Assembly (NCBI RefSeq): GCF_023634805.2
Contig: NZ_CP106881.1
Coordinates: 3,253,501 to 3,317,500, forward strand
Length of the DNA stretch: 64,000 bases
Source of the DNA: Comamonas endophytica
Lineage (GTDB): Bacteria; Pseudomonadota; Gammaproteobacteria; Burkholderiales; Burkholderiaceae_C
Direction of reading: 5' to 3'
The notes under the pieces are model-generated. The model was not told the DNA's origin. It saw nothing but the letters and a program-made list of their open reading frames with translations, and did no database searches. Positions 3,046 through 32,677 of the stretch are shown in pieces. The position numbers and the translations under genes are program-made. Positions within the stretch are counted from its first letter, which is position 1; each line of letters begins with the position of its first letter.

Positions 3046-3057
3046 GGCGACGTCACG

Positions 3058-4358: not shown

Positions 4359-4445
4359 ACTTATCGTTAGCTAACTCCGCGAGCAGCAGATCCAGACGAT
4401 GAGCAGACACTCGACAAATCGTGATGCATCGCACTCACTCTATTC

Positions 4446-4702: not shown

Positions 4703-4712
4703 GGCGCCTATT

Positions 4713-4742
4713 TTGGCTTCAATGCTTGCATTATGTTACAAT
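4713..4742 (+). promoter_or_regulatory. Possible sigma70 promoter of the ABC-3C operon
   Basis: TTGGCT at 4713-4718 and TACAAT at 4737-4742 are separated by 18 bp, and the first start codon follows 37 bp later. The -10 is good and the -35 matches four of six bases. Assigned by eye only. Confidence 0.35.
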
Positions 4743-4778
4743 TTTCGACAAGGAATTAATGGAGAGAGGCGCAAAAAA

Positions 4779-5993
4779 GTGACGGAGAACATTAAATCTA
4801 ACGCTGTCCATGAAGCGACAGCCGCTGCCCTCGGGTTTTATTTTCAAAGCCAGTTTGCTTTGTTGAAGCTCATTTCACAGACGAGCAGTGATGCCGCAGC
4901 AGCGGTTGAGCGATTGGATGATGTCGAGTTGAAGGTCGACGGACAGCAACTTTTTTACCAGCTTAAGCATTCTATTAAAGAATTCCCTCCCCCCGTCACG
5001 CTGGCCTCAGTGGCGTTGTGGAAGACTATCAAGGTCTGGATTGACGCTCTCCCTTTTGTTTCCCTTGCAGACACGACATTCCACCTCGTTGCAGTTGGAA
5101 AGGTGCCTACTGATTCACCGTTGATGTCTTTATGCGATTTGGACAGTGATCGCAAGGCGCTACTGCAGGCGATGGAGAAAGAAGCGGATCGTGTATTGAC
5201 TGAAAGATCGGACGCAAAGTCAGCTGGTGCTAAGCCCCCTCATTCTGCTCGAGCACCTGGCTGTCTTGCCTTTCACGCCCTTGCTCCTTCCGCTCGCTTA
5301 AGCCTCCTGCGCAGAGTAATCATTCAGCAGGACACTGCAAGCATTGGAGAAATACCTAATGAGGTAGCCAAGCGACTGCACCTCATTCCTCAAGTACAAC
5401 GATTGGAGGCTGCAAAACGTCTGCTACAATGGTGGGATCAACAAGTCATATTCAGCTTGTGTGAAAAGCGTGAGCGGGTAATCCAACGGAGCGAAATGGA
5501 GTATCAGATATCTTCTATTATCGCGGATCTAGATAATGGAACGTTAGTGGCTGATTTCTCCGAGTTCACACAACCCGAGGATTATGAGCCTGATGGACTA
5601 CTGACTCGTCAAATTGCGCTTGTAGATGGTAGGCCTTCGGATATCGCGAAGGCAATCCGAGCACAATGGCGGGCTAAAGAGCAACGGTCCAAATGGATTA
5701 CAAATAATCCAGAAATGCGCTCGAAAATAGCGGGCTATGATTCAGTACTTACTGAACGCTGGTCAGATCGCCACTCCCAGATGGTAGAGGACTGCGCTGA
5801 ACTCGAGCCATCCCAAGTGGCAAACAAAGGACTAGAACTTCTGCGTTGGACTCATGAGAAAGCTCCGACTCAAGTTGAGCCTATCTCGCGTGGCTGGACC
5901 GCTCATTACTATGTACAGGGCACCTTCCAAGTGCTTGCAATCGACCTTCGCGTAGGTTGGCACGCAAACTACCTGAAGCTTCTCAAGGATTAA
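4779..5993 (+). CDS. ABC-3C system first component (effector-side protein with ABC-3C C-terminal domain)
   Basis: A protein of about 404 aa, first of a three-gene operon. The C-terminal [20 protein letters not shown] resembles the C-terminal domain that marks the effector-associated component of ABC three-component conflict systems. The N-terminal half ([20 protein letters not shown], then [17 protein letters not shown]) resembles the DUF4297/Cap4-like restriction-endonuclease fold that recurs in such proteins, with VELK and QLKHS reading like part of a D-x-n-(E/Q)-x-K core; this is inferred. GTG 4779 is chosen because GGAGAGAGG at 4761-4769 precedes it by 9 nt; the open frame extends to TTG 4713 through the promoter. 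Confidence 0.72.
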
Positions 5994-5997
5994 GGCC

Positions 5998-6483
5998 ATG
6001 GCGATTGCTCACGACATTTTTGCCGAAACCAATCCGGCTTATTGCGCGTCTCTGTTAGCCACATTCGTCCGATCCTACCGTATCGGAAATAAATCAGAGC
6101 CAGATATCACACTGTGTTACGCTGCTCTGCCATTGGCATTGTCTGGAGATTTGACTCCTACGTTCAACGGTACGAATCGTAGGACGGGATTATTGGAGTG
6201 GCTGCGTCGTAGCCCTGTAATTCAGATCCGTCTTGCTGCTCGAGTAAATGGTTCATTGGATATCGTGACAGAAGCAATCAGGTTTGGATGTTTTAGTAAT
6301 CTATTGGAAATAAAAACTGATGGAAAAGTAGCCCCTGGCATGTCACTTGTGCCTAAGCAGCTCAGAGCAGAGCTAACGCAGGACACTCGGAAGAATTTCG
6401 ACAATATCGACCGAATTGGTCATTGGTTTGCTTCGGCCGGCTCAACAAGGACGGTATTCAACTTGATGGGTCTTGAACTATGA
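5998..6483 (+). CDS. ABC-3C middle component
   Basis: A 161-aa protein starting 4 nt after the previous stop and overlapping the next gene by 4 nt (ATGA). It begins [19 protein letters not shown] and has [12 protein letters not shown] and [17 protein letters not shown] segments. These fit the small alpha-helical middle component that links ABC ATPase and effector in three-component systems. No catalytic residues are evident. The assignment depends on operon position and size as much as on sequence. Confidence 0.68.
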
Positions 6484-8420
6484 GTCGCTGGAATATTTCG
6501 AGAATTTTCTTTATTGGTGAGGGCGGCCGTGCTCGTTCCTTCGAACTGGAGCTCGGCAAGGTGAATATATTCACCGGAGCGTCGGGAACTGGTAAATCGA
6601 CGCTGATCAAAGCCATCGACTATTGTCTAGGATCCAGTGTGTGTGAGCTTGCAGCCCACGTGAAGCGCCACAGTATCGCTGTCGGCATCAAGTGGGTGTT
6701 AGGTGATGCGGAAATGATCACTGGCAGAGTCATTCCGCCGCTGGGACAAAACACCAGTACCAAAATGTTCGTCAGCAGCGGACGGAACCTTCGAATCCCA
6801 ACGTCGTTAGAGGAGTTTGAAGGAGCTACAAATCTAATAGCAGGGAAGTCCTTTATTGAGCGAGCATTTGGGATCGGAGGAGTAGTCGACGCATCGGATG
6901 AAAGCGCTGTTCGAAAATGGCGACCGACAGTGCGCCACGCGACAGCTTATATGTTTGTTCCCAAAGACGTTATCTATAACGAGACTGCTTTGCTTCATGG
7001 CTTGGACCAAGCCGATGAAGCTCCGGGTATTATTGAAACGATGCCTTACTTTCTCGGTGTCATCACTCAAGACACTGTGATCCAGGAGCGTCAGTTAAAG
7101 GATCTTCGCAAGCGGTTTGATCGGGAGCAGCGTCGGCTTCGAATTCATCAAGCGGAAGGTAGCGAATACAAAAAGCATGCGACGCGTTTACTGATGGATG
7201 CTCATCGCACTGGCCTTTGTGAACTCCTGCCTGACGATGCTTCAGAAACGGTTCTTCAAGAAGCACTATTTAGGCTCAAACGATTGAAGTTCAGCAAAGG
7301 GCAGAACCCGAGCGAAGGGGAGCTTTCTAGCCTCCACACGCAGCGTCGAAGCTTGCTCAGTGAGATCGAAAAGGCAAGGCGTAGCTCGCGAGCTACACAG
7401 GTGGCGCTCCAGGAAATGTCGGGGTTTGAGGGAGCAGTAAAGCGGCAATATGAGAAGTTGAAAATTGCCGAGCATCTTGAGCCGGTGGCCCACTCTTGCC
7501 CCTTGTGTGATGCACCCAGTGAACGCGGGATCGCTGCCGCCCAGGCCATACGCCAATCAATTGACATCGTTCGCTCTGAAGGTGCAGCGGTTGAAAATGT
7601 ACGGCCTCGCTTGGTGGATCATGAGGAAACGCTTCAGTTGGAGCTTACGAGGCTCAATGACAAACTTAAGGGCGTCGACGAGCGTATAAAAACCTGGATT
7701 AGGCAAAGCAGTGAAGCCCAGGAGATGGATAACCTTGCGCAGTATCACGCGCACTTGATGGGAAAGGTTTCGCAGTTCTTAGAGATGAATCCTGCGACGC
7801 CGCTTCCAGGCCCTGACGTCAACGTCCTACGTGAGCAGATTGAGGAGCTAGAGGCGCTCATTGATAACGACGCTAAACAAGTTTTGCTCGCACGTGCTGA
7901 GCGAAAGGTTTCGCAATATCTGTCTGAAGCGTTCGCATTGCTGCCCACTGTCGCACCTTGCGTTGACGCCGAGTTGGAGTTTTCGACCAAGCCACCAGCT
8001 ATCGCGATCATCGAGAATGATTCTGGAGCGGTATTGCGACTACCAGATGCAGGCTCGGATGAGAACTACTTGGCTATCCACATCGCGCTGTCTTTCGCTT
8101 TACAAAAGCACCTCGGAAATACCAACGCCCCTGTACCGGCTTTTCTAGCATTCGATCAGATCAGTCGTCCTTACTACCCTCAAAGCGGAGACGATGAAGC
8201 AAGTCTTGGAGAGAATGAGGAGGTCTTGGCAATGCGTCGTCACCTAGACTTTTTGTTCAACGCTACCACTGAACAGAAAGATTTGCAGGTTCTGCTGATT
8301 GAGCACGCGTATTTCAGCGATGACCCCCGTTACGTAAGTGCTACCCGTAAGAGGTGGAACAAGCTTTCGGGAGATGCCCTAATTCCGCTGGACTGGCCAA
8401 AGAGGCATGACAGCCTGTAA
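6480..8420 (+). CDS. DUF3732-type SMC/Rad50-like ABC ATPase of the ABC-3C system
   Basis: A 646-aa ATPase with Walker [10 protein letters not shown] near residue 38. Central coiled-coil arms (about 200-440) are interrupted by a Rad50-like zinc hook SCPLCDAP near 340. The C-terminal lobe contains the signature [18 protein letters not shown] and a Walker B-like [11 protein letters not shown]. The Asp-Gln in place of Asp-Glu is usual for this family. Such ATPases are proposed to sense nucleic acid and license an effector component; here that is the product of the first gene. It is the last gene of the operon. Confidence 0.85.
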
Positions 8421-8683
8421 GGGACTTGGCATGAAGAGATAACGACCACTTAAGCTCATTCACAATCATGTTACCTTCGGGCCTAAACGCCGATAACCGC
8501 GCTGCCGTCGATAGCATGTTTGAGGCCGTTTCTACTCACGATAGCACGGCGGACATGCCCGCTCACAAGCTATCTGTCCGCTGATCCCATCTTTATGCTG
8601 AACAACTCTTTGAGCAATATCGCTTCCACGAAACAACCGTGCACACGATGCTCAAAGATTCTTAATCCCTTCGCTATTTGGTG

Positions 8684-8872
8684 CCGCGCACGCTCCGCAC
8701 CTGTGCACCACAGTTCAAGGCCGAACTGATCACCGCATGCCTGCAGCCCGGTGCATCGATTGCCGTCGCGGCGCATGAACATGGCCTGAATGCCAATGTG
8801 CTGTATCGCTGGCTCGAGGAGCATTGGCTAAGCCGGCACCAGATCGCCTGCGATATGGCACCCGCGTCTTAG
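8684..8872 (+). mobile_element. IS66-family accessory transposase (TnpA) relic
   Basis: The frame reads FKAELITACLQPGASIAVAA and then HEHGLNANVLYRWLEEHW, the helix-turn-helix of the small IS66 OrfA/TnpA protein. Neither TnpB nor TnpC follows and no terminal inverted repeats were recognised. The preceding stretch (8421-8683) holds no gene I can support. It lies between the ABC-3C operon and the NACHT gene. Confidence 0.65.
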
Positions 8873-8969
8873 CTCAGACTTTTATCCGATAGCGCCAGAC
8901 GCTTCTCAACTAACTAGAGATTTCGATTCGTCTCGGTCTCCAAATGTTAATCCCGGAAATTTCCTTAGA

Positions 8970-10826
8970 TCAATCTCCTAGAGTGAAGATGAGTTCCTTC
9001 TTATTTTCTGCATCTACAACTTCTTGGGCAACAGTGCGGAGTTTTTCAAGTCGAGTTTCATAAATCCCGAGTTTCGTGCAAATTTCTTTGGTGCCAAACG
9101 CGTTAATAATTGATTTTCCAGGAATAAATATTTCTTCTGCATCGATTGCGTCTGCCATAAAATGAATTTTAAATAAATCCTCTATCTCTTTGATGGGAAA
9201 TGGCGACGGCATCATTGTATCTAAGGCCTCCATGATCAGAAACACCAAGCCAGCCAAGTGCTCGCCTGCCCGCTCCTTCTCAGTTTGAAAGGAAATTATG
9301 GTCGCTGTGTCTGCCGGCGAAGTGTTCCTCTGAAAACAAAGTCCAAAATTAGGATATGCCGCCTCCATAATATTTGACAGTTCTGCAGGACTTTTTTTTG
9401 AGAGGTCGCAACAAAAAATTTCTTTTTCCGATGCAACGAAGGGTAGAATAAATTTCTGGGAATAGCGAAAAGAATCTATTGATTTAAGAAATGACAGCAC
9501 GTCCTCCCATCCAAGCGTTTTCTTTAACATTGCTTGGTAGAAATGTGAGGAGTTTTTTTCGTTCAATTTCCGCACAAAAGAAGCTGCGTAGTAATCTAAG
9601 ATGCTTTTATGTAGATATGTGATGGAATCTATTCCCTCCATTAGCATGAGGCATGCGGTATTTGTTATATCCGCCTTAAAATTATCTGCATCACACTTTA
9701 ATCCGTCGGAGTATTTTATTGCGTATTTGAAAACTTCTTCAAACTGATCTGCGGTCAGTGTTCGATTGTGCCCAAGCTGAAGGGTCATAAAACAAAATGC
9801 CTCGAAAACTGTCTGCAACCCACGTTCCGAAAGTCCACTTTGATGGACGCGTGTAAAACCACCTTTCAGACGGTCGTGATTAGAGACAACAACTTGGAAA
9901 AGTCGGTCAAAAAATTCTGGAAGTGTCTCAGGAATTCTTACTTCAGCCTCATAAACAATAACGACTAAAGTCAGCATTAGCGGCGTTTTTATGAGATTGC
10001 TGAGTTTGCTCGGACTGTTGCGAATGGCCTGTCTTAATTCAAGCGATTTTTCCGAGCTTACGCCTAATTTTGTCAAAAATGCAGGGAACTCGGCCGGAGT
10101 TAATTCAGCTATTCGTAGCGTCTTGAAAGTTGGCGATTTTTGTATCTCGTTTCCTGGCCGGGAAGTGACGACTATTAATAATTCTGGATAGCGCCGTGCA
10201 AGATGTTCAATGTGTAAGTACACCGCCTTGACAAGTTTTTCTTCGATTTCATCGAAGCCATCCAGCAAAAGAGAAAACTTTCCAGATTTGAAGAGAAAAT
10301 CGATGGTGGCCTCATCGATGTCAATATCGTAGCTTTCCAGTGCTCGAAAAATTGCCCCCTGCAGGTCTGTCTTGATACTTAAGTCTTTCAGTTCAATAAA
10401 GAGCGGAAGACGTTGAGCATCATTGCTGGTGATTTCATTGATTGCAAGGCTGCGCAGGAAGATTGATTTCCCTTGGCCGACGATTCCTTCTATGATTACA
10501 GCATTGTCTTCGAATGCAGACAATCTGGTCACAAACTCCGGTTTTTCTTGGAAAGCTAGCTTTGGTGGATGGAAAAATGTTTGCAAAGATAATGGTTGTG
10601 ATTTCCATATGGTTCGCACCGTGTCGAGGCTCTTGATCCGAGTGGCGATTTTGCGAGGGAAGGAGCTGGCTTCCCATTTTTGCAGTCCTCTAGTTCCAGC
10701 TTTTTTCGATAACTTTAGTATTTCATTAATAATCGGAGCAGCTAGTCGCGCAAGGCTTATGAGGGAAATAGGTTCTACAGCCAATTTTTTTCCTGAAAAG
10801 TTATCGTTATGTGAAAGCAACCGCAT
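8970..10826 (-). CDS. Stand-alone bacterial NACHT NTPase
   Basis: A protein of about 618 aa. An N-terminal helical stretch (about 1-90) is followed by a NACHT module. Walker A is GIVGQGKS near residue 115 and Walker B is FSLLLDGFDEIEE near 195, with the small residue and acidic pair typical of NACHT. A sensor-like IVVTSRPGNE follows, then winged-helix and helical regions. The C-terminal 250 residues carry no domain I recognise. ATG 10826 is preferred; an in-frame TTG at 10841 would add five residues. Base composition is strikingly AT-rich for this window, supporting horizontal origin. An antiphage role is inferred from family and context. Confidence 0.78.
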   Translation of the reverse strand: MRLLSHNDNFSGKKLAVEPISLISLARLAAPIINEILKLSKKAGTRGLQKWEASSFPRKIATRIKSLDTVRTIWKSQPLSLQTFFHPPKLAFQEKPEFVTRLSAFEDNAVIIEGIVGQGKSIFLRSLAINEITSNDAQRLPLFIELKDLSIKTDLQGAIFRALESYDIDIDEATIDFLFKSGKFSLLLDGFDEIEEKLVKAVYLHIEHLARRYPELLIVVTSRPGNEIQKSPTFKTLRIAELTPAEFPAFLTKLGVSSEKSLELRQAIRNSPSKLSNLIKTPLMLTLVVIVYEAEVRIPETLPEFFDRLFQVVVSNHDRLKGGFTRVHQSGLSERGLQTVFEAFCFMTLQLGHNRTLTADQFEEVFKYAIKYSDGLKCDADNFKADITNTACLMLMEGIDSITYLHKSILDYYAASFVRKLNEKNSSHFYQAMLKKTLGWEDVLSFLKSIDSFRYSQKFILPFVASEKEIFCCDLSKKSPAELSNIMEAAYPNFGLCFQRNTSPADTATIISFQTEKERAGEHLAGLVFLIMEALDTMMPSPFPIKEIEDLFKIHFMADAIDAEEIFIPGKSIINAFGTKEICTKLGIYETRLEKLRTVAQEVVDAENKKELIFTLGD

Positions 10827-10959
10827 ACTTGCCACTTTCAACAGCTTGCGCTTTCATGGTACCAATAGATAGGTACAACGCGTCTTATGTGGTGGGATGT
10901 TACAACACCAAGGCACGTGCACGTGGGCGACACTTTGCACTCAGATTGAGGCAATGGTG

Positions 10960-11359
10960 AAAGCGCGACTACGATGTCAGGCAGAACATCACGGCGCTGC
11001 CCAAGCATATAGCCATACCAGCGCTGTTAACCTGCTGGATTTTGGCTAGGGCTCGCGGCGCGACTTGCACCTCCAAGGAGATGAGCCACCGTGCCGTGGG
11101 CTTGGAGGGCGCGCCTAGTTCGATGGCGATGGCGCGCGTGCATAGCGGCTGCAAAACGCTGGAACAGAGCTTTCTGCAGCTTGAACTGCCCGCGCAGGGC
11201 TTCAATGATGTGCTTGCCAATGCCGTGCTGTTTCATGTGCCCAGCCAAGTGCTGCCTTAGGTGCTGTGCCAACTGCGGCCGAGCGGGGTGTTGTTCAGCT
11301 TCAACCCGCGCGGGTTACGGTGGGAGGGCTGAAACGGTGAACGCTATGGCGTGTTTTGA
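10960..11359 (+). pseudogene. Class I SAM-dependent methyltransferase, frameshifted remnant
   Basis: Three frames together rebuild a methyltransferase: DYDVRQNITAL near 10968; in the next frame LLDFG-stop-GSRRDL, the remains of the glycine-rich SAM site; then back to VGLEGAPSSMAMARVHSGC and FNDVLANAVLFHVPSQVLP, and after a TAG VLCQLRPSGVLFSFNPRG. At least two frameshifts and three stops are present. The order of motifs is that of an intact family member, so this is a decayed gene rather than chance similarity. Confidence 0.75.
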
Positions 11360-21938: not shown

Positions 21939-23369
21939 TCAAACGCGATTGCGACGCTTTCTGGCGATCAGAACGATCAGCAGCAGCAAGATCACCGCGG
22001 CCACGGCCATGCCCACGCGGGCTAGCAGGATCAGGCTGGATTTCTCTCCGCCTTCGCGGATGGTCTGCACCTGCGCCGCGGTCACGGATACGCCAGGATT
22101 GCCATAGCTGGTCAGCAGGAAGTTCGACAGCGCGGCCACTTCGTCATTGTTCAGCGGCACCATGGCATTGTCCTGGCCACCGAAGGGCGGCATGAACACA
22201 TGGCCGCCTTGGGGTGTCTCGCGGTCTACGCCGCTCAAAATGGCGGCAATCAGGTTCGACGGGTTGGCTTCGCCGGTGATCGACTTGCCGAACAGCGCCG
22301 GGTAATAGCCGTCCTGCGTGCCCTGGCCCGATGCGCCATGGCAGGAGGCGCAGTTGGCGGTGAAGATCTGCGACCCGAGCGCCACGCCGCTTTGCTTCAT
22401 GCCTTCGGCAAAGGAGGTGCCGCGGAAGCTGGCGGTGGCGTCCGTGGCCTGACCGTGCGCGAAGCGGTTGCGTCCGGCGGGCTCCTCCGGCTTGTGGCTG
22501 GGCACCGACAGGATATAGGTGGAGATAGCGCGCAGGTCGCTTTCAGTCATGCGGCTGAAGCTGTGCGTGATCGCCTCCGCCATCGGGCCCGCGGCCTGGG
22601 CTTTGCCGGGCAGATGGCCGGTGCGCAGGTAGGTCGTCAGCTCATCCACCGACCAGCTGCCGATGCCGTGCGTCTTGCTGTTGGTGATGTCCGGCGCCCA
22701 CCAGGCACCGATCTGCGCACCGCTCAGGCTCTCGCTGCCCAGCTCCTGCATCAGCGCGCCACGCGGGGTGTGGCAGGTCATGCAGTGGCCGGGGCCCTGG
22801 GCCAGATAGGCGCCGCGGTTCCATTGCGCGGATTGCGCTGCGTCGGCCTCGAAGGGCTTGTCATCGGCGAACAGCAGGTTCCAGCCGATCATCGAGGCGC
22901 GCACGTTCATCGGGAAGGGCAGCGAGGTGCTTGCCTTGGGCGACTCGTCCACCGGCTTCACGCCCTCCATGAAATAGGCGTACAGCGCGTGCACGTCTTC
23001 ATTGGTCAAGCGCGCGAACGCGGTGTAGGGCATGGCCGGGTACAGCCGCGCGCCGTCGGCACGCACGCCCTTGCGCAGCGCATCGGAGAACTGCTGCTCC
23101 GTGTAGTTGCCTATGCCGTGGGTCTTGGAGGGCGTGATGTTGGTGGCGACGATCTCGCCCACGGGCGACGAGATCGCATGCCCGCCCGCCATGGGCTTGT
23201 CCTTGGTGGCGGTGTGGCAGGCAATGCAGTCCGATGCCGTGGCCAGGTAGCGGCCCTTTTCGATCAGCTCGGTGGAATAGTTCTGCGCCATGGCGGCGCC
23301 GGTCACGGCCAGCGCGGCGATGGCCAGCAAGGCGCGTGCATTGCGCAGGAGGGAGGTGGTGTTTCGCAT
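21939..23369 (-). CDS. Tri-haem cytochrome c subunit of FAD dehydrogenase
   Basis: A protein of about 476 aa. A Sec signal peptide ends near AAMAQ, followed by three cytochrome c domains with haem motifs CIACH, CMTCH and CASCH, and a C-terminal anchor helix VAAVILLLLIVLIA followed by RKRRN. This layout is that of the cytochrome subunits of membrane-bound gluconate, sorbitol and alcohol dehydrogenases, which pass electrons to ubiquinone. ATG 23369 is 14 nt after the flavoprotein gene. It is the last gene of a three-gene operon, before a terminator. Confidence 0.92.
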   Translation of the reverse strand: MRNTTSLLRNARALLAIAALAVTGAAMAQNYSTELIEKGRYLATASDCIACHTATKDKPMAGGHAISSPVGEIVATNITPSKTHGIGNYTEQQFSDALRKGVRADGARLYPAMPYTAFARLTNEDVHALYAYFMEGVKPVDESPKASTSLPFPMNVRASMIGWNLLFADDKPFEADAAQSAQWNRGAYLAQGPGHCMTCHTPRGALMQELGSESLSGAQIGAWWAPDITNSKTHGIGSWSVDELTTYLRTGHLPGKAQAAGPMAEAITHSFSRMTESDLRAISTYILSVPSHKPEEPAGRNRFAHGQATDATASFRGTSFAEGMKQSGVALGSQIFTANCASCHGASGQGTQDGYYPALFGKSITGEANPSNLIAAILSGVDRETPQGGHVFMPPFGGQDNAMVPLNNDEVAALSNFLLTSYGNPGVSVTAAQVQTIREGGEKSSLILLARVGMAVAAVILLLLIVLIARKRRNRV

Positions 23370-23383
23370 GGTCGTTCCCTTCC

Positions 23384-25009
23384 TCAAGCCTTGCGCACTT
23401 GCGCTTGCAGCGCATCGGCTGCCTTGATGGCCAGTGCCACCATGGTGATGGTCGAGTTGCCGCAGGCCGTGCTGGCCATGGCGCCGCCGCCGGGGATGAA
23501 GAGGTTGGCGTGGTCGTGCGAGCGGCAGTCGGCGTCCACCACGGAAGTGGCGGGGTCGTTGCCCATGATGGTGCCGCCCATGATGTGCTTGCTTTGCGCG
23601 AAGCCCTTGGGCTCCTGCACCTTGACGGCGCCCATGGCCTTGGCGATTCTGTGCAGCAGCGGCACGGCGTATTCGTCGGCCGAGCGGCGCGTGTAGTCGC
23701 CCACGTCGTAATAGATCGCTGGCTTGGGCAGGCCCAGCCAGTCCTTTTTGTCCGACAGGGTCAGGCGGTTCTCCGGGTTCGCCAGGGTTTCGAAGGCGAT
23801 CACCACGTTGGTGGTGCAGCCGGCCTCGCGGCGGATTTCCTCGTCGAGCGCGCGGCCGACCTTGCCGGTCTTGAGCGCGTTGAAGGTGACGAAGCGGTTG
23901 CGGCCGAAGTTGTTGAGGCGGAAATAGGCGCCGGCATGGCGCGAGCGGAAGTCGCCCTGCGAGGTTTCCATGATGCCGGAGTTCACCACCGGGCCGGCAC
24001 CGGTCCAGTACGGCTCGGTCGTGGTGAGGGTGAAGCCCTTTTGCGGGTGGTCCATCATGTTGCGGCCGACCTGGTCGGAGCTGTTGTTGGCAATGCCCTT
24101 CGGATTGCGTTCGTCGGCCGACATCAGCAGCAGCTTGGGGTTCTCCAGGCCGTTGCAGGCGGCGACGAAGTGCCCGCCGGTGACGCGGTGGCTCTGCTTG
24201 TTCGGATCCATGTAGTGGACCGCGGTGATGCGGTTGCCTTCGCCCGATTCGATGCGGTGCGCCACGGCGTTGTAGATGATCTTCACGCCCTTGCGCTCCA
24301 GGCGCAGCAGGGCGGTTTCGCCGTCGTACTTGGCGCCGATGGGGCAGACCGGCACGCAGTTGTTGTTGGCGCAGCAGGCCGGGCGGCCGTGGTAGGGCAT
24401 GCCGCTGTTGCGCGCCTGCGAGACGTGGATGTTCGACAGGCCCAGCTGCGACTTCACCACTTCCGTGAACTTCTTCTCGCCCGGCGACAGCGGCAGGGCC
24501 GGCATGGGGTAGGGCGCGGAGCGCCGCAGGCGCGGCCATTGCTGCTCGGGATCGGACGGGCCGCAGATGCCGATGGCGTGCTCGGCGCGCACGTAGTAGG
24601 GCTCCAGCACGTCGTAGCCGAAAGCCCAGTCGCGGCCCACCCCGTAGAGCGAGTGCAGGCGCATGTCCTCGGGCGTCAGGCGCCAGCTGGTGCCGGCCCA
24701 GTGCCAGGTGGAGCCGCCGGCGTAGCGGATATAGGTCTGGTCGTAGCTGTCCGGGCCGGAGAGCTGCAGATAGTCATCGCCGGGCATGGGGTGCGGCGCC
24801 CAGTCGGCCGGCGGGTAGATCGAGTTGGCGCTGCCCTTGTTCGACAGGGGCATGTTGCGGAAGTTTTCCACGATCTCGTTGCGGTAGACGCGCGGGCCTG
24901 CCTCGAGCATCACTACGCTGATGCCGGCATCGATCATCTGCTCGGCGATCGTCAGGCCGACGACGCCGGTGCCGACGATGACCACGTCGGCGGAAATATT
25001 CTTGTTCAT
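23384..25009 (-). CDS. GMC-family FAD dehydrogenase large subunit
   Basis: A 541-aa flavoprotein. The N-terminal dinucleotide fold is VIVGTGVVGLTIAEQM, with GGSTWHWAGTSWR for flavin contact. A Cys cluster ACCANNNCVPVCPIG near residue 225 fits the Fe-S ligands of FAD-dependent glucose and sorbitol dehydrogenases. The C-terminal HIMGGTIMGNDP and CGNSTITMVALA contain the catalytic His/Asn region. It has no own signal peptide, so it is probably exported with the Tat-signal small subunit. The oxidised polyol or sugar acid cannot be told from sequence. Confidence 0.9.
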   Translation of the reverse strand: MNKNISADVVIVGTGVVGLTIAEQMIDAGISVVMLEAGPRVYRNEIVENFRNMPLSNKGSANSIYPPADWAPHPMPGDDYLQLSGPDSYDQTYIRYAGGSTWHWAGTSWRLTPEDMRLHSLYGVGRDWAFGYDVLEPYYVRAEHAIGICGPSDPEQQWPRLRRSAPYPMPALPLSPGEKKFTEVVKSQLGLSNIHVSQARNSGMPYHGRPACCANNNCVPVCPIGAKYDGETALLRLERKGVKIIYNAVAHRIESGEGNRITAVHYMDPNKQSHRVTGGHFVAACNGLENPKLLLMSADERNPKGIANNSSDQVGRNMMDHPQKGFTLTTTEPYWTGAGPVVNSGIMETSQGDFRSRHAGAYFRLNNFGRNRFVTFNALKTGKVGRALDEEIRREAGCTTNVVIAFETLANPENRLTLSDKKDWLGLPKPAIYYDVGDYTRRSADEYAVPLLHRIAKAMGAVKVQEPKGFAQSKHIMGGTIMGNDPATSVVDADCRSHDHANLFIPGGGAMASTACGNSTITMVALAIKAADALQAQVRKA

Positions 25010-25107
25010 GTGGGGAAAGTGTTCGCGCGTGCGCGGCGCACGCTTGCATCAACGCCCAAGGGGCACGCTCGAGCAATTGCCAGGGCGCGCCGCGGGCTCC
25101 GGGGTTG

Positions 25108-25662
25108 TCAGAATTGCGGGATCGGCAGCAGCGGCGCGTTGTCGAGTTGCTGCCACGCGTTCGGCGCGGTGAAGCCGTAGGAGGGAATGGGCACCACGTC
25201 GCGGGTGACCTGGTACGTCAGCGCATGCTCGTAGGTGAACATGGCGTCCTTCTTACCCGGGCCGGCCATGCCGCTGTACCAGGCAAAGATGATCCACTGC
25301 GCGAGTTCGCGCTGCGGTCCCTCGGGAATGTCGTCGTAGAAATCTTCCACTGCCGTCGCCTTGCGCTCCTGCGCGAGTTGCAGGATGGCGGCGGAGTTGC
25401 CGGCGAAATCGGCGAAGTGCTGGCTTGCGTAAGCCTCCATCTTGGCGCCTGCTGCCGCGTTCAGGCCGTGGTTGACCAGCAGCTGCGACAGGCTCATGAA
25501 GGACGAGGTGCCTGCTGCCGCTGCAGGCGCCAGCGCGCCGGGCGCCGCGGCGCCGCTGCCGGCCAGGGCCGAAGTTTGCAAGGGGCCTGCATAGGCGGTC
25601 AGCACGGCTGCCGCCGCACCGAGCAAGGCTTGCCGGCGGGAAAGGGAATCGGGGGAAGACAT
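25108..25662 (-). CDS. Tat-exported small subunit of FAD dehydrogenase
   Basis: A protein of about 184 aa with a twin-arginine signal SRRQALLGAAAA at residue 8 and an Ala-rich hydrophobic stretch. The mature domain has a FYDDIPEGPQRELAQWIIFA segment and ends near WQQLDNAPLLP. It matches the small (gamma) subunit of gluconate 2-dehydrogenase and sorbitol dehydrogenase complexes, which pilots the folded flavoprotein through Tat. It is the first gene of the operon, 98 nt before the large subunit. Confidence 0.88.
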   Translation of the reverse strand: MSSPDSLSRRQALLGAAAAVLTAYAGPLQTSALAGSGAAAPGALAPAAAAGTSSFMSLSQLLVNHGLNAAAGAKMEAYASQHFADFAGNSAAILQLAQERKATAVEDFYDDIPEGPQRELAQWIIFAWYSGMAGPGKKDAMFTYEHALTYQVTRDVVPIPSYGFTAPNAWQQLDNAPLLPIPQF

Positions 25663-26000
25663 CGAGGGAGCCGCTAGATCGAGAGAAAGGGAAGAATTGC
25701 CGTGGCAGGCCGTTTCGTTGCGCTGTGCCGCTGCCACCCGGGCAACCGGAGCGATTCTAGTTTCTTTTGGGCACCGCTGGAGTCGTTTGCGCGGTATTGC
25801 ATTGCATGAGGGCGCGGAGCGCGCCAGAGTGGTTACCCTAATGCCGGGTTCGCCAGGCATCTTCAGGCGCTGGCTTGCGGGCCTTCGGAAATGATTCGCC
25901 GGCAGCTCATGCAATGGATGCGCACCGGGCCGCGGCAGCGGGGCCAGGCCCTCGGGAACAACGCCATCAAGGCTGAATCGGCGGCGCAGGAGGACAAAAT
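25663..26000. other. Intergenic region without a recognised gene
   Basis: About 340 bp between the dehydrogenase operon and the lipoprotein terminator. It must hold the promoter of the minus-strand operon. Frames here are short and have no family resemblance. Confidence 0.6.
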
Positions 26001-26006
26001 GCAAAA

Positions 26007-26030
26007 AGCCCACCGGAGTGCCGGTGGGCT
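26007..26030 (-). terminator. Terminator of the lipoprotein gene
   Basis: AGCCCACCGG and CCGGTGGGCT pair around AGTG; on the minus strand the stem is followed by a T run (from the AAAAA at 26003-26007), 22 nt after the stop codon. Confidence 0.88.
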
Positions 26031-26487: not shown

Positions 26488-26657
26488 TGGAATCCTTCTT
26501 GGCTTTTGCGAAGGTCCCAGTCTCATCGCAACGCCGCAAGCGCTGCTGTAGGACGGAGCTTTGCAAGCGCCGCTGTAATTTCCCAAATTCCGCGGTGGCG
26601 CTTGCGCCCGGCGGCATTGGCCGGATGGCGCGGCTGCGGTAAGATGGCAAGTGCTCC

Positions 26658-26734
26658 GGGGTGCACGCCAGTGCTGAGATCCATACCCGTGAACTTGACC
26701 CGGGTCATTCCGGCGGAAGAAGAGCTTGCACCCC
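26658..26734 (+). ncRNA. TPP (THI-box) riboswitch
   Basis: Outer helix P1 is GGGGTGCA (26658-26665) with TGCACCCC (26727-26734). CTGAGA at 26674-26679 is the invariant pyrimidine-sensing bulge. ACCCGTGAACTTGACC and CGGGTCATTCCGGCGGAAGA follow, giving the conserved pyrophosphate-sensing arm in order. The element is 76 nt upstream of the LuxE-like start codon. Thiamine pyrophosphate is therefore expected to turn the downstream operon off. Confidence 0.93.
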
Positions 26735-26766
26735 GATGTGGCCGCGCCTGCCCGCGCGCCCGGCAG

Positions 26767-26806
26767 GGGAGCCTTCGGAGCACCATGCCAACGCTCCCGA
26801 AGGAAA
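26767..26806 (+). promoter_or_regulatory. Expression platform that can hide the ribosome-binding site
   Basis: CCTTCGG at 26772-26778 is complementary to CCGAAGG at 26797-26803, and the latter contains most of the Shine-Dalgarno GAAGGAAA of the LuxE-like gene. Flanking GGGAG/CTCCC can extend or compete with the pairing. No U-run follows, so control is probably at translation. Confidence 0.6.
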
Positions 26807-26809
26807 TCC

Positions 26810-27892
26810 ATGGACCAAGCCGCTTCACTGGTTGCAGACCTGCGTGCATTCATCGCGCAGGGTGGCTGCACCGACGCCCAGTTCGACGCTCTCGCGCTGC
26901 GGCTGTTTGCCTACCAGTACGCATCGAACCTGCCGTTTCGCAGCTTCTGCCAGCGCCGCGGCGCCACGCTGCGCAATGTGCGCACCTGGAGCGACATTCC
27001 CGCCGTGCCCATCGATGCCTTCAAGGCATTGGAACTGCGCAGCGCACCGCCTTGCGAACAAGAGCGCGTTTTCATGACCAGCGGCACCACCGGGCGCGCG
27101 GCGCGCGGGCGGCACTTCCATCCGCAACTCGAGGTCTATGACCTGTCGATGGTGCGCAATTTCGCGCAACGCTTCATGCACGGGACCGGGCGCATGCCCA
27201 TGGGCATCCTGTTTCCCGACGAGCAGGCCATGCCGAATTCATCGCTCGCGCATTACCTGGCGCTGGCGAAGTCCGAGTTCGGCACTGCCGAGAGCCGCTA
27301 TTTCCTCTCGCCCGAAGGTCTCGACATGCCCGGCCTGTGCGCTGCGCTTGCGGAGTCGGAGCGCAGCGGCCAGCCCTATGCGCTGCTGGGCGCGAGCTTC
27401 AGCCTGGTGCATGTGATGGACGCGCTGCGCGCGCAAGGCCGCAGCTTTCGGCTGCCCGCGGGCAGCCGCATCCTGGACACCGGCGGCTACAAGGGCCAGT
27501 CGCGCGAGCTGCCGCTGGAGGACTTCTATGCCGGGCTGTCGCAGCTGCTGGGCGTGCCGCGCTCGCACTGTATCAACATGTATGGCATGACGGAGCTCAG
27601 CACGCAGTTCTATGACGACGGCAACGCCGTGATCCCTTCCGTCAAGTCGGGACCGCACTGGATCCGCTCGCGCCTGGTCGAGCCCGTCACGGGGCGCGAT
27701 GTGGCGCCGGGCGAGCGCGGCATCCTGGTGCATTGCGATCTGGCGAACTACAACGCCGTCACCACCATCCTGACCGAGGACGTCGGCCTGTGGGCCGAAG
27801 GCGGCTTCTTGCTGCTGGGGCGCGCCGAGGGCGCAGCAGCCAAGGGCTGCTCGCTGGCCGTCGAGGAATTCGTCAAGGCAGCCGGCGCATGA
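26810..27892 (+). CDS. LuxE-like acyl-protein synthetase (carboxylate-activating)
   Basis: A 360-aa protein of the LuxE branch of the ANL adenylating fold. FMTSGTTGRAARGRHF near residue 88 is the ATP loop and NMYGMTELSTQFYDD near 258 is the LuxE signature. In bioluminescent bacteria LuxE adenylates a fatty acid and passes the acyl group to LuxC. No luxAB is present here, so luminescence is not implied. ATG 26810 has AAGGAAAT just upstream, within the riboswitch expression platform. It overlaps the next gene by 4 nt. Inferred role: activating a carboxylate linked to thiamine supply. Confidence 0.85.
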   Translation: MDQAASLVADLRAFIAQGGCTDAQFDALALRLFAYQYASNLPFRSFCQRRGATLRNVRTWSDIPAVPIDAFKALELRSAPPCEQERVFMTSGTTGRAARGRHFHPQLEVYDLSMVRNFAQRFMHGTGRMPMGILFPDEQAMPNSSLAHYLALAKSEFGTAESRYFLSPEGLDMPGLCAALAESERSGQPYALLGASFSLVHVMDALRAQGRSFRLPAGSRILDTGGYKGQSRELPLEDFYAGLSQLLGVPRSHCINMYGMTELSTQFYDDGNAVIPSVKSGPHWIRSRLVEPVTGRDVAPGERGILVHCDLANYNAVTTILTEDVGLWAEGGFLLLGRAEGAAAKGCSLAVEEFVKAAGA

Positions 27893-29349
27893 ATGTCCAA
27901 CGGATCACTGCGGGCTATCTGCCGGGGGGGCTCGAAGAGGGGGTGCACTGGCATCTGCTGCCCTTCGAGCGCGACGGGCTGCGGCTCGAGGTGGCGGTGC
28001 CGGTGCTGTCCGAAGCGCAGATGCAGGCGCTGGCCGAGCGGGTGCGCGCGGCTGCCGACCGCCATCTGCGCCAGATGCCGGTCGCGCAGATCATCGATGC
28101 CATCGACCGGGCCATCGCGCGCCTGCTGGACCGCAACGACCCCGCGCGCCGCGAGGCCGAGGCCTGGCTGCCGGTGGTGACCGGGTATGACGCGGAGATG
28201 GTGCGGCTGGGACTGACGGGGCTTTTCAAGACCTTCAGAGCCGCGCAGCTGCGGCGCTTCGTGGCCGAGGATTTCGCCAACCCCGGCGTGCTCGACGGCT
28301 TCCAGCCTGCGCCCAAGGGCGGGGCCGTGCGCGCCTTCGGGCCCGATCTGCTGGTGCACAGCTGGGCCGGCAACGTGCCGGCGCTGTCGCTGTGGAGCCT
28401 GGTCTGCGGGCTGCTGGTGAAGGCGCCAAGCATCGGCAAGCTGGCCAGCGCCGAGCCGTTGTTTGCCGGGTGGTTTGCGCGGCTGCTGACCGAGGTGCAT
28501 CCACCGCTGGCCGAATGCCTGGCCGTGGTCTGGTGGGACGGCGCCGGAGGCATCGGCGCCGAAGGGGCGCAGGCGCTGTATGCCCGTGCCGATACGGTGC
28601 TGGCCTATGGCGGCAACCAGACGCTGGATGCGCTGCGCCGGCGGCTGCCGGTGACCACGCGCTTCGTGCCGCATGGGCATCGGCTGGGCTTTGGCTTGAT
28701 CGGCGTGGCGGCGCTCGATGCGCTGAAGGCTCCGGCGCTGGCACGGCTGGCGGCCTGGGATGTGATGCGCTACGACCAGCAGGGCTGCTACTCGCCGCAT
28801 GTGTTCTATGTGCAGCGCGGCGCGCAGGTGGAGCCGCGCGCGTTTGCCGATCATCTCGCGGCCGAGCTGGCCAATCTGCAGCGACGCTTCGCGCGCCGCG
28901 CGCTGGCGCTGGAGGAGGGCGCGGCCGTGGCGAAATGGCAGCAGGGGGTGGAGTGGGGCGCTGACGAAAACATCCTGATCGGGCCGGTCGATGCGCCCTG
29001 GAGCGTGGCATACAGCGACAGCCTGCAGCCGCTGGCGCCCACGGCGCTGTACCGCACCATTGCGGTGGTGGGTGTGGACAGCCTCGATGAAGTGGTGCCG
29101 GTGGTGGCGGCACAGCGCGAATACCTGCAGACCGCGGGCGTTGCCGCGGGGCCCGAAGAGCTTTACCGGCTGGCCGGGCTGTTGGGCGCGGCCGGGGCCA
29201 CGCGCATCTGCGCGATCGGCGCGATGAGCACGCCCGAGGCCGGCTGGCATAACGACGGGCGTTTCAATCTGCTGGATCTGGTGCGCATGACGGAGATCGA
29301 GCAGTCCGCGGAAATCGCGGCCCAGCCCTTTGCCACCTATGCGGACTGA
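27889..29349 (+). CDS. LuxC-like acyl-CoA reductase
   Basis: A 486-aa protein of the LuxC aldehyde-dehydrogenase-like family. HSWAGNVPALSLWSLV near 160 fits the LuxC nucleotide-binding region and RYDQQGCYSPHVFYVQ near 295 carries the acyl-accepting Cys. It begins inside the LuxE-like stop (ATGA), so the two are coupled. Together they would reduce a carboxylate to an aldehyde with ATP and NADPH. The natural substrate is not evident; regulation by TPP suggests a thiamine precursor rather than a fatty acid. Confidence 0.85.
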   Translation: MNVQRITAGYLPGGLEEGVHWHLLPFERDGLRLEVAVPVLSEAQMQALAERVRAAADRHLRQMPVAQIIDAIDRAIARLLDRNDPARREAEAWLPVVTGYDAEMVRLGLTGLFKTFRAAQLRRFVAEDFANPGVLDGFQPAPKGGAVRAFGPDLLVHSWAGNVPALSLWSLVCGLLVKAPSIGKLASAEPLFAGWFARLLTEVHPPLAECLAVVWWDGAGGIGAEGAQALYARADTVLAYGGNQTLDALRRRLPVTTRFVPHGHRLGFGLIGVAALDALKAPALARLAAWDVMRYDQQGCYSPHVFYVQRGAQVEPRAFADHLAAELANLQRRFARRALALEEGAAVAKWQQGVEWGADENILIGPVDAPWSVAYSDSLQPLAPTALYRTIAVVGVDSLDEVVPVVAAQREYLQTAGVAAGPEELYRLAGLLGAAGATRICAIGAMSTPEAGWHNDGRFNLLDLVRMTEIEQSAEIAAQPFATYAD

Positions 29350-29356
29350 GACGAGC

Positions 29357-30103
29357 ATGGCATTCCTGGAGATCCAGCAGGTGGCCTTCGGCTACCCCGG
29401 CCGCGCGCCCGTGGTGGATGGCGTGGACTGGCGCATGCCGGCCGGCGAGATCCATTGCCTGCTCGGGCGCAGCGGCTGCGGCAAGACCACGTTGCTCAAG
29501 CTGGCGGCGGGCCTGCTGCGGCCGCAGTCGGGGCGCATCCTGCTGCGCGGCGCCGCGCTCACCGCGCCCGGGCCGCAGCTGGGCTTCATGTTCCAGGCGC
29601 CGACGCTGCTGGAATGGCACCGGGTGCTCGACAACGTGCTGCTGCCGGTGTCGCTGCAGCGCCGGCCCACGCCGCAGGACCGCGAGCGTGCACTGCAGCT
29701 GCTGGGGCAGCTGGGCCTGGCCGGGCATGCGCAGCGCTATCCGCGCCAGCTCTCGGGCGGACAGCAAAGCCGCGTGGCGCTGGCGCGCGCGCTGCTGCTG
29801 GAGCCGCCGCTGCTGCTGCTCGACGAGCCCTTCGCCGCACTCGATGCGATCACGCGCGCCGAGCTGCAGGACGATCTGCTGCGCACCTGCCGCGCGCTGG
29901 GCACCACGGTGCTGTTCGTCACGCATGACATCCACGAGGCGGTCTACCTGGGCGACCGCATCGCGCTGATGCATGGCGGGCGCATCGTCGACGATATCGC
30001 CATCGTGCTTCCCGCACCGCGCACCCAGGCCATGCGCCATGGCGCGGCCTTCAACGGATACTGCGCGCGCGTGCGCGCCTGCATGGACCGGGCCGGTACA
30101 TGA
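29357..30103 (+). CDS. ABC transporter ATPase (SsuB/TauB/ThiZ type)
   Basis: A 248-aa ATPase. Walker A is GRSGCGKTT near residue 37, the Q-loop is MFQAPTL, the signature is LSGGQQSRVALARAL, Walker B is LLLLDEPFAALD and the switch His is in VTHDIHEAV. ATG 29357 follows the LuxC-like stop by 7 nt. Its sequence class is the importer group that takes up sulfonates, nitrate or HMP; under TPP control, uptake of a pyrimidine or thiamine precursor is inferred. Confidence 0.9.
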   Translation: MAFLEIQQVAFGYPGRAPVVDGVDWRMPAGEIHCLLGRSGCGKTTLLKLAAGLLRPQSGRILLRGAALTAPGPQLGFMFQAPTLLEWHRVLDNVLLPVSLQRRPTPQDRERALQLLGQLGLAGHAQRYPRQLSGGQQSRVALARALLLEPPLLLLDEPFAALDAITRAELQDDLLRTCRALGTTVLFVTHDIHEAVYLGDRIALMHGGRIVDDIAIVLPAPRTQAMRHGAAFNGYCARVRACMDRAGT

Positions 30104-30876
30104 ATCCGACGCCATTCCGGATACGGCTCATGGCCGCCGCCTTGCTGCTCGTCTTGCTCGGCCTGTGGGAGCTTGCGGTGCGCGGCTGGGGCCTCTCGGC
30201 GCTGGTGCTGCCCGCGCCCTCGGCCGTGGCCGCAGCGCTGTGGACGGGCCTGGACTCGGGTTACTTCTGGCCGCACATCGCCGCCACGCTGCAGGCGCTG
30301 CTGCTGGGGCTGGCGGCCGGCTCCCTGGTGGGGCTGCTGGCGGGCATGGCGCTGGCCGAGTTCGCGCTGCTCGAGCGGGTGCTCAAGCCCTATGTCGTCG
30401 TGAGCCAGGTCGTGCCCAAGCTGGCGCTGGCGCCGCTGTTCGTGCTGTGGTTCGGCTTCGGGCTGCTGCCGACGGTGCTGATCACGGCGCTGATCTGCTT
30501 TTTCCCGCTGATGGAAAACACGCTGACCGGCCTGCGCCAGGCCGACGCCCAGCGGCTGCAGCTGTTTCGCATGCTGGGCGCCACGCGCCTGCAGACGCTG
30601 CTGCGCCTGAAGCTGCCCGCGGGCCTGCCGTCGATTCTCGCCGGCCTGCGCGTGGCGGTGGTGCTGGCGCTGGTGGGGGCGGTGGTCGCCGAATTCATGG
30701 GCGCCAGCCGCGGCCTGGGCGCGGTGGTCATTGCCGCCCAGGGAATGATGGACACCCCGCTGATGTTTGCGGCGCTGGCGCTGATCGCGGCGCTGGGGCT
30801 GCTGCTGTACCAGGGCTGCCTGGTTCTGGAGCGCCGGCTGCTGCGCGCGCATGCCGTTTCCGAAGACTCTTGTTGA
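30100..30876 (+). CDS. ABC transporter permease (ThiX/SsuC/TauC type)
   Basis: A 258-aa inner-membrane protein with about six helices, starting ATGA inside the ATPase gene end. The EAA loop is visible as FRMLGATRLQTLLRLKLPAG followed by LPSILAGLRVA (about 155-185), and VVAEFMGASRGLG is typical of the taurine/nitrate/HMP permease family. It functions as a homodimer with the ATPase upstream and the binding protein downstream. Confidence 0.9.
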   Translation: MNPTPFRIRLMAAALLLVLLGLWELAVRGWGLSALVLPAPSAVAAALWTGLDSGYFWPHIAATLQALLLGLAAGSLVGLLAGMALAEFALLERVLKPYVVVSQVVPKLALAPLFVLWFGFGLLPTVLITALICFFPLMENTLTGLRQADAQRLQLFRMLGATRLQTLLRLKLPAGLPSILAGLRVAVVLALVGAVVAEFMGASRGLGAVVIAAQGMMDTPLMFAALALIAALGLLLYQGCLVLERRLLRAHAVSEDSC

Positions 30877-30885
30877 TTGCCCGAT

Positions 30886-31893
30886 ATGACTGAATTGCCT
30901 ATGTTTCTTTCGCGCCGCGGCCTGCTCGGCGGCATTGCCGGCCTGGCACTTGCGGGGCCGGGCATTGCCGCGCCGGCGCCAGCGGGCAGGGTGCGCCTTG
31001 CCGGCTGGAGCAAGCCGATCAGCGAGATCACCAATATCCTTGCGGAACCCGACAAGGGCTTCTTCAGGGCCCAGGGCGTGGAGCTGGACTACCTGCCGGG
31101 CGCGGGTGGCGGCGATGCCGTGCGCAACCTGCTCAGCGGCCAGGCCGATGTGGCCTTCACCGACCCGGGCTCGTTCTTCATGGCGCTCGACAAGGGCGCG
31201 AAGCTGGTCGCGATCTACGACATCTATCCGCAGAACGTGTTCAACGTGGTGTCGCTCAAGTCCTCGGGCATCCGCAAGCCTGCCGACCTCAAGGGCAGGA
31301 AGATCGGGGTCTACAGCCTGTCGAGCGGCACGCGCCAGAACCTGCTGGTGCTGCTGCATCAGGCCGGGCTCAAGGAGTCGGACGTGCAGATCGTCGTCAC
31401 CGGGCTGCTGAACTTCGCACCGCTGATGCAGGGCCAGGTCGATGCCACGGCCGCCACCGACACCGGGCTGGCCGTGGGCCTGCGCAAGGGCATCGGCCAG
31501 GTCAACGTGATGCCGGTGCGCGAGCATCTGAACATGTCCAGCGACCTGTTCGTGGTGCGCGAGGAGGCGCTGCGCGAGAAGAGGGCGCTGTTCAAGGCCT
31601 TCCTGAAGGGCTATCGCGACAGCGCGGCGTGGATGATGGCGCATCCCCAGGAGGCGGCGGATCTGGCCGCCAGGCGAGCCATTGACGGCACGCAGCGCGA
31701 CATCAACCTCGAGGTGATCCGGCTGCGCAATGTGGCCTCGTTGCCCGAGGGCAAGGACGCCGCGTCCCGGTTGGGCAACTTCGACCTCGTTGCGCTGCAA
31801 AAGGGCGCCGATGCCTACCAGGCGCTGGGCCTGGTGCAGCGCCGGATCAAGGTATCGGACGTGGTCGACACGAGCCTGTTGCCGGGAGCCTGA
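30886..31893 (+). CDS. NMT1/THI5-like ABC substrate-binding protein
   Basis: A 335-aa secreted receptor. The signal peptide begins with a twin-arginine-like SRRGLLGGIAGLALAG and ends near PGIAAPA. The mature start VRLAGWSKPISEITNILAEP, the GGGDAVRNLLSGQADVAFTD turn and DLKGRKIGVYSLSSGTRQNL fit the NMT1 family, to which the HMP-precursor receptor ThiY belongs. ATG 30886 is chosen; the frame also has a TTG at 30877. Ligand inferred, not shown. Confidence 0.85.
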   Translation: MTELPMFLSRRGLLGGIAGLALAGPGIAAPAPAGRVRLAGWSKPISEITNILAEPDKGFFRAQGVELDYLPGAGGGDAVRNLLSGQADVAFTDPGSFFMALDKGAKLVAIYDIYPQNVFNVVSLKSSGIRKPADLKGRKIGVYSLSSGTRQNLLVLLHQAGLKESDVQIVVTGLLNFAPLMQGQVDATAATDTGLAVGLRKGIGQVNVMPVREHLNMSSDLFVVREEALREKRALFKAFLKGYRDSAAWMMAHPQEAADLAARRAIDGTQRDINLEVIRLRNVASLPEGKDAASRLGNFDLVALQKGADAYQALGLVQRRIKVSDVVDTSLLPGA

Positions 31894-31894
31894 C

Positions 31895-32677
31895 ATGGTG
31901 CCGACAGCAATGGATCTGCGCGGCAAGGTGGCGCTTGTCACGGGCGCGAGCCGCGGCATCGGAGCGGCGATCGCCGTGGCGCTGGCGCGCGAGGGCGCCA
32001 GCGTGGTGGTCAACCATCTCTCCAACGATGCGGCGGCGGCGCAGACCGTGGCGGCATGCATCGCCGCCGGCGGCGACGCCTGGGCCGTGAAGGCCGATGT
32101 GGGTTCGGCGGAAGCGGTGCGGGCCATGGCCGAGGACATCGGGCGCGAGGCCGGGGCGATCGATATCGTGGTCAACAACGCGTTCCGTCCCTATGCCTTC
32201 GACCCCGAACGCCGCCAGCGCTTCGACGATCTGGCGTGGCGCGACTACCAGGCGCAGTTCGATGGCGCCGTGGGCGCGGCCTTCAATGTCTGCCATGCGG
32301 TGCTGCCGCAGATGCGCCGGCGCGCGCGCGGCAGCATCGTCAACATCGCCAGCAATCTGGTCGAGCACCCGGTCGTGCCCTACCATGACTACACCACCGC
32401 CAAGGCCGCGCTGGTGGCGTTCAGCCGCAACCTGGCCAGCGAGCTCGGGCCGATGGGCATCCGCGTCAACTGCGTGGCGCCGGGGCTGGTCCACCCCACG
32501 CGGGGCAGCCAGGGCACCCGGGAATCGTTTCGCGAATCGCTGATGGCGGCCACCCCGTTGCGGCGCCTGGCGCGGCCTGAGGATGTGGCCGGGCCGGTGC
32601 TGTTCCTGGCGTGCGATCTCAGCGCCTTCATGACCGGCCAGGTGCTGACCGTGGATGGCGGGCTGGTGATGCGATGA
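31895..32677 (+). CDS. Short-chain dehydrogenase in the TPP-controlled operon
   Basis: A 260-aa FabG-like SDR. The cofactor loop is TGASRGIG near residue 17, VNNAF follows near 92, the catalytic Ser is in NIASNL and the catalytic pair in YHDYTTAKAAL. It starts 1 nt after the binding-protein stop, so it is the last gene of the riboswitch operon. It could reduce the aldehyde made by the LuxE/LuxC-like pair to an alcohol, completing a carboxylate-to-alcohol conversion. That link is inference from gene order. Confidence 0.85.
   Translation: MVPTAMDLRGKVALVTGASRGIGAAIAVALAREGASVVVNHLSNDAAAAQTVAACIAAGGDAWAVKADVGSAEAVRAMAEDIGREAGAIDIVVNNAFRPYAFDPERRQRFDDLAWRDYQAQFDGAVGAAFNVCHAVLPQMRRRARGSIVNIASNLVEHPVVPYHDYTTAKAALVAFSRNLASELGPMGIRVNCVAPGLVHPTRGSQGTRESFRESLMAATPLRRLARPEDVAGPVLFLACDLSAFMTGQVLTVDGGLVMR

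Follow-up and report, generated by a model that had tools for sequence, protein, structure and literature searches.

In a 64,000-nucleotide stretch of the Comamonas endophytica genome (contig NZ_CP106881.1, positions 3,253,501 to 3,317,500; called the window in the following) a thiamine pyrophosphate (TPP) riboswitch precedes six genes that encode a LuxE-like synthetase, a LuxC-like reductase, an ATP-binding cassette (ABC) importer with its receptor and a short-chain dehydrogenase/reductase (SDR). We consider it probable that these genes are an operon repressed by TPP through which an oxidised version of the thiamine pyrimidine is salvaged; the simplest candidate for it would be 4-amino-2-methylpyrimidine-5-carboxylate. 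The proposal draws on what can be read from sequence, namely the riboswitch, the gene set, the conserved cysteines, the linkage to thi genes and a predicted receptor fold. In window coordinates the system consists of the following features:

26647..26738, + strand: TPP riboswitch aptamer (THI element); RF00059, 53.6 bits, E 8.6e-10
26772..26803, + strand: hairpin, putative expression platform (translational control), from the minimum-energy fold
26810..27892, + strand: E, LuxE-like acyl-adenylating / acyl-protein synthetase with proposed catalytic Cys347; PF04443, 67.3 bits (cut-off 24.9)
27889..29349, + strand: C, LuxC-like acyl reductase with proposed catalytic Cys300; PF05893, 248.7 bits (cut-off 21)
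29357..30103, + strand: A, ABC importer ATPase; PF00005
30100..30876, + strand: B, ABC importer permease; PF00528 (binding-protein-dependent permease)
30886..31893, + strand: S, NMT1/THI5-family substrate-binding protein; PF09084 (NMT1), 168.9 bits
31895..32677, + strand: D, SDR, proposed aldehyde-to-alcohol step; PF13561/PF00106

The initial annotation of this DNA had placed a THI-box before six closely spaced or overlapping genes and regarded failure in a covariance-model search as refuting its reading. In a search of 501 bases the element matched RF00059 over its full length (model positions 1-105) with the listed E-value, and with E 1.8e-9 when searched in its own genome, the score lying 0.7 bits below the gathering score of 54.3. 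The match to the whole aptamer places the element in RF00059. A gathering-threshold Rfam scan of the whole window reported no element at all, since this one narrowly fails the cut-off; orthologous elements reach up to 61.1 bits at loci of the same bacterial family and 85 bits at plasmid loci. Within its own genome the element is one of three TPP matches (E up to 10). The other two lie before thiC (64.5 bits) and before a thiO-thiG-thiE run (24.4 bits, E 0.027), where the frames match the Pfam families DAO (to which ThiO belongs), ThiG and TMP-TENI. Between the aptamer and the start codon of the luxE-like gene E a hairpin is predicted at 26772-26803, the 3' arm of which covers the Shine-Dalgarno sequence of E.

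To characterize the conservation of this arrangement we used a LuxE alignment of 13 sequences (A1), which yielded 367 related stretches in genome contigs. The best 80 of the 367 were analysed; they come from Comamonas, Delftia, Acidovorax, Achromobacter, Bordetella, Variovorax, Ramlibacter, Polaromonas, Curvibacter and other genera. The order E-C-A-B-S-D was found in 74 of the 80 relatives, and the remaining six (L029, L033, L073, L076, L081, L093) end inside the operon at a contig edge and have the same order in the visible part. A covariance model built from 14 leaders detected a THI element upstream in 79 of the 80 with E 2.6e-22 or better. The single miss, L090, arises because its contig begins inside thiD, such that the leader is off the contig. 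In many relatives hairpins of differing letters fold at the same place, and by a crude script rule 75 of 79 sequences pair close to the start codon (81 were tried, L090 lacking a riboswitch match and L094 the motif, and some start codons were miscut). The hairpin over the Shine-Dalgarno sequence favours translational control.

Matches to LuxE occurred in 17 of 150 genomes of the family, of which 16 were counted as members and one (G028, 27% identity) was left out. The Rfam TPP element was present at 14 of 16 family loci, the misses being L019 at a contig edge and L020, which is the G028 match. Of 300 genomes sampled from the order 7 had a LuxE profile match, and of 398 from the phylum 8. Two weak phylum matches in one genus (G537 and G679) had no TPP match at either locus: that of G537 (L112) is a true lux operon, which serves as a control and has no TPP match in its 4 kb, and the G679 locus was examined by Rfam only. 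The other five loci of the same Rfam scan (L106, L108-L111) carry the TPP element.

All six genes lie on one strand behind the riboswitch, with four-base overlaps of E with C and of A with B; the start codons of S and D were chosen among in-frame candidates. The presence of a LuxE/LuxC-type carboxylate-reducing pair together with an SDR and an importer, as read initially, was borne out. E aligns to LuxE of the LuxC-LuxE complex (PDB 7xc6) with E 2.7e-27, the cysteine of a KGCS motif matching Cys347, and C aligns to LuxC of the same complex with E 1.9e-15, where DQQGC lies on DQQAC (Cys300). We compared these sites at 91 loci, i.e. the 80 relatives and 11 further ones (L118, L124 and L125 repeat others, leaving 88 distinct loci). 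The cysteine of E is kept wherever its site is covered (90 loci; 91 with E compared), and so is that of C (89 loci; 90 with C compared). We take the KGCS cysteine of LuxE to be acyl-carrying and, likewise, the aligned LuxC cysteine to be the acyl-carrying or catalytic one. Judged by domain scores above the cut-off together with the aligned cysteines, E belongs to the LuxE family PF04443 and C to the LuxC family PF05893. By eye D has the SDR motifs YxxxK and TGASRGIG, and its best NCBIfam model is PRK08642 with 272 against a cut-off of 292.

The link of the operon to thiamine is strong. At 14 of the 91 loci thiD is located directly ahead of luxE, with the riboswitch seen ahead of thiD in 13 of them (the fourteenth is L090). 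In three of these loci (L076, L077, L081) the contig stops before or just after D. In all 11 remaining ones a match to thiE (8 loci) or thiO (3 loci), both searched with frames from the window's own genome, starts at most 0.5 kb from D on the same strand. At L121 thiD is in the opposite orientation, and D is closely followed by thiO-thiG-thiE. Most clearly, in genome G384 (98% complete; L116) thiD-E-C-A-B-S-D-thiE-thiO-thiG form one run behind a 62.4-bit TPP element. This genome has no thiC match and no ThiM-type kinase, and its sole PF08543 kinase is located inside the operon. With thiG present, such a cell can supply its own thiazole, but no means of making the pyrimidine was seen. The pyrimidine branch is well supported as the target of the operon. 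In the window's own genome thiC, thiG and thiD are all present, as are thiO- and thiE-like frames; between the thiO-G-E run and thiD of this genome lie eutB and eutC (ethanolamine ammonia-lyase by Pfam; L102, 6722-8961). In another genome, G147, thiD and thiG matches occur within 7 kb of the operon, and the operon riboswitch is accompanied by a weaker TPP match of 40.6 bits, about 1 kb away on the opposite strand (L006; 3704-3813 and 2639-2732).

For the receptor S the top structural match of the structure model was 3ix1, tied with 4nmy, such that the model is nearest to the formylaminopyrimidine-binding ThiY and a thiamin-bound receptor. By domain and closest fold S fits a receptor of ThiY/NMT1 type, and pyrimidine binding is predicted. 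The likeness to ThiY is tempered by a single-sequence search with S, which ranked SsuA ahead of both THI5 and ThiY. That S is instead a THI5-type enzyme is disfavoured by its export signal, a twin-arginine-like N-terminus seen by eye, and by a THI5 stretch left unmatched in the profile alignment, which presumably is the location of the THI5 cysteine motif. The importer is replaced by a nucleobase permease of family PF00860 in lactobacilli and in Niallia. The best NCBIfam match of these permeases is PbuX, below its cut-off, and both are above the cut-off of NF037981 (purine/pyrimidine permease). The replacement of the importer by nucleobase permeases points to a flat, nucleobase-like substrate.

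A plasmid collection contained 28 records with a relative, of which 27 pass 1e-30; the one that does not comes from E. coli and has 24% identity. Eight of the 28 loci were read, picked for variety. In all eight, which come from three classes, a TPP match precedes the cassette and both cysteines are kept. Plasmids of Pantoea dispersa and Pantoea sp. BRR-3P carry E-C-SDR only, and those of Azospirillum lipoferum and Priestia megaterium all six genes, the TPP element of the latter (49.0 bits) being below the cut-off. In Pseudomonas silvicola (L136; CP093281.1, about 8000-11270) E, C and D match in separate pieces behind a TPP element of 63.8 bits, so that this copy is apparently broken or misread. 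Plasmids of Lactiplantibacillus plantarum and Levilactobacillus brevis have the order permease-E-C-SDR with identical protein accessions. These two are thus not independent, and their identity indicates that the cassette moved recently between species. The riboswitch-permease-E-C-SDR unit spans 1390-6321 on the 10-kb L. plantarum plasmid (L132; NZ_CP035118.1) and 2947-7878 on the 21-kb mobilizable L. brevis plasmid (L133; NZ_CP050546.1). On a 1.4-Mb plasmid of Niallia taxi (L135; NZ_CP102590.1) tandem TPP riboswitches at 5697-5993 (85.0 and 72.9 bits) are followed by thiW, a permease, E, C and an SDR. At L115, in genome G790 from another order, the operon consists of E-C-D alone. As E-C-D occurs without the importer, and the importer is replaced elsewhere, it is the three enzymes that stay constant across the loci read, with an importer that can be exchanged.

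We then considered which genomes carry the operon. Among 22 carriers and 25 non-carriers thiC was present in 17 and 15, thiG in 21 and 16 and a ThiM-type kinase in 3 and 0 genomes, respectively. In a second set of 50 carriers (50 of the 80 loci) 45 have thiC and all 50 thiG; at least five of them repeat genomes of the first set, as identical match coordinates show (G816/G280, G829/G088, G839/G022, G847/G068, G856/G014). Those without thiC are Variovorax dokdonensis (L075), Ramlibacter monticola (L089), R. montanisoli (L091) and two metagenome-assembled genomes (L077 and L097). Together with G048 (86% complete), G110, G130 and G384 this gives nine carriers that lack thiC and have thiG. Besides these nine, thiC is missing from carrier G093, which is 55% complete and has no thiG either.

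In the 150 family genomes, treated as independent without correction for kinship, the LuxE/LuxC pair was found in 15 of 95 genomes with thiG and in 1 of 55 without it, namely G093 (p = 0.006). Of the genomes with thiG, 3 of 7 that lack thiC and 12 of 88 that have it carry the pair (p = 0.076). Where both thiC and thiG are missing, it was found in 1 of 53 genomes, that one being 55% complete. The operon thus accompanies thiG and is nearly absent where both branches are missing. The suggestion that LuxE-LuxC pairs under TPP riboswitches correlate with a missing thiC did not hold: absence of thiC showed no association with the pair in the 150 genomes (p = 0.28), and the window's own genome has thiC. 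We therefore reject the operon as a general replacement for thiC.

According to our proposal S, together with B and A, would import the carboxylated thiamine pyrimidine. E would activate the carboxylate with ATP by adenylation and hold the acyl group as a thioester on Cys347. C would take the acyl group onto Cys300 and, using NAD(P)H, reduce it to the aldehyde, from which D would form hydroxymethylpyrimidine (HMP) by a second reduction. ThiD would then turn HMP into its pyrophosphate, which ThiE would join to the thiazole. At high TPP levels the riboswitch would shut the operon, probably via the hairpin over the ribosome-binding site. Of the uptake and reductive repair of a thiamine building block proposed initially, a thiamine-pyrimidine product is supported by the thiD/thiE flanks, the ThiY-like receptor model and the swap to an NCS2-type permease. 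We infer which acid exactly is the substrate, in which direction the reactions run, the step order and the repression. The HMP acid is named as the simplest candidate rather than as a result.

We see about an even chance for a broader reading, in which a mobile TPP-controlled cassette in at least three classes of two phyla reduces a thiamine-pyrimidine carboxylate to HMP by luminescence-type, ATP-dependent acyl-thioester chemistry, such that oxidised fragments of vitamin B1 become a usable nutrient and, in strains without thiC, a source of the pyrimidine. If true, a repair arm would be added to vitamin B1 salvage, genes automatically annotated as long-chain fatty acid ligases and acyl-CoA reductases would gain a function, and LuxE/LuxC chemistry would be shown on a heteroaromatic acid.

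We weighed four alternative readings. The acid might not be a breakdown product of the vitamin at all: starting from a pyrimidine acid or from some other acid, the operon would be a ThiC-independent source of HMP or of a precursor to it. The nine carriers with thiG and without thiC must get their pyrimidine somewhere, and LuxE/LuxC chemistry would in principle not be bound to one acid. However, a dedicated importer or a nucleobase permease suggests that a ready-made ring arrives from outside, and thiC is kept in 45 of 50 carriers, so that we regard this alternative as unlikely, though less so than the others. A repair of whole thiamine oxidised on its side chain, with thiamine acetic acid being imported and reduced to thiamine, ranks behind it and is also unlikely. 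The genomes that would profit most, those lacking both thiC and thiG, are nearly devoid of the LuxE/LuxC pair, and the nine thiC-less carriers counted above all keep thiG. In addition, the front gene at 14 loci is thiD and not a thiamine kinase (thiamine pyrophosphokinase was not searched for), and in lactobacilli a nucleobase permease takes the importer's place. Thiazole acids are known breakdown products of thiamine, and 4-methylthiazole-5-acetate could be reduced to hydroxyethylthiazole (HET). The Niallia operon starts with thiW, which we take to encode a thiazole-linked family of precursor transporters, and the 3 of 47 genomes with a match to the HET-kinase family are all carriers. The other 19 of the 22 carriers have no such match, though, and thiG is present in 50 of 50 carriers and 21 of 22 others. 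With thiD and thiE flanking the cassette (the queries of those flank searches did not include thiM), a thiazole substrate appears very unlikely.

Finally, the product of the enzymes could be a fatty aldehyde or a lipid, like that of luminescence or of flagellar glycan islands, with TPP control being incidental. The family names and the automated annotation 'long-chain fatty acid--CoA ligase' suggest as much, and LuxE, LuxC and FabG genes co-occur in flagellar glycosylation islands (PMC7874193, PMC4875605). Against the NCBIfam equivalogs for the long-chain luminescence proteins LuxE (NF052244) and LuxC (NF052251), E and C reach only 64.9 and 71.0 bits with cut-offs of 550 and 750. The linkage to TPP and thi genes moreover recurs across classes, and the lux operon control has no TPP match. 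We therefore disfavour a fatty aldehyde function and consider it the least probable of the alternatives.

Among the closest known systems, the LuxC-LuxE fatty acid reductase of luminous bacteria has homologues of E and C, with the conserved cysteines lining up. In contrast to it, the present operon falls far below the long-chain cut-offs, has no luciferase gene among its six, and lies behind a TPP riboswitch together with an SDR and an importer. Salvage operons of the ThiXYZ/ThiY type for formylaminopyrimidine also sit under TPP riboswitches, but use deformylating and deaminating enzymes in place of the carboxylate-reducing ones found here. The flagellar glycosylation islands likewise unite LuxE-type, LuxC-type and SDR genes; as far as the two papers (PMC7874193, PMC4875605) could be accessed, they differ in adding an acyl carrier protein, an AMP-dependent synthetase or CoA ligase and glycosyltransferases, with no thiamine link seen. 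Searches of mostly open-access literature gave, among the matches listed (titles and opening parts of abstracts), no description of LuxE/LuxC genes with TPP riboswitches or thiamine. A survey of riboswitch regulons (PMC3766115), which among betaproteobacteria covers Burkholderia and Ralstonia, uses no term that starts with 'lux' in the main text. The novelty of a TPP-controlled LuxE/LuxC operon is thus provisional.

The genes flanking the operon in the window encode a GMC dehydrogenase, a YscW-like protein and, named by eye, TerB-like and GGDEF proteins. No more than 1 to 2 of the 91 loci have them next to the operon. We therefore rejected them as operon members and take the six genes as the unit. 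The adjoining minus-strand stretch at 21939-26013 holds the GMC-family dehydrogenase (Pfam) with cytochrome-like and small-subunit-like frames (by eye), an arrangement found likewise at only one of the 91 loci, L022.

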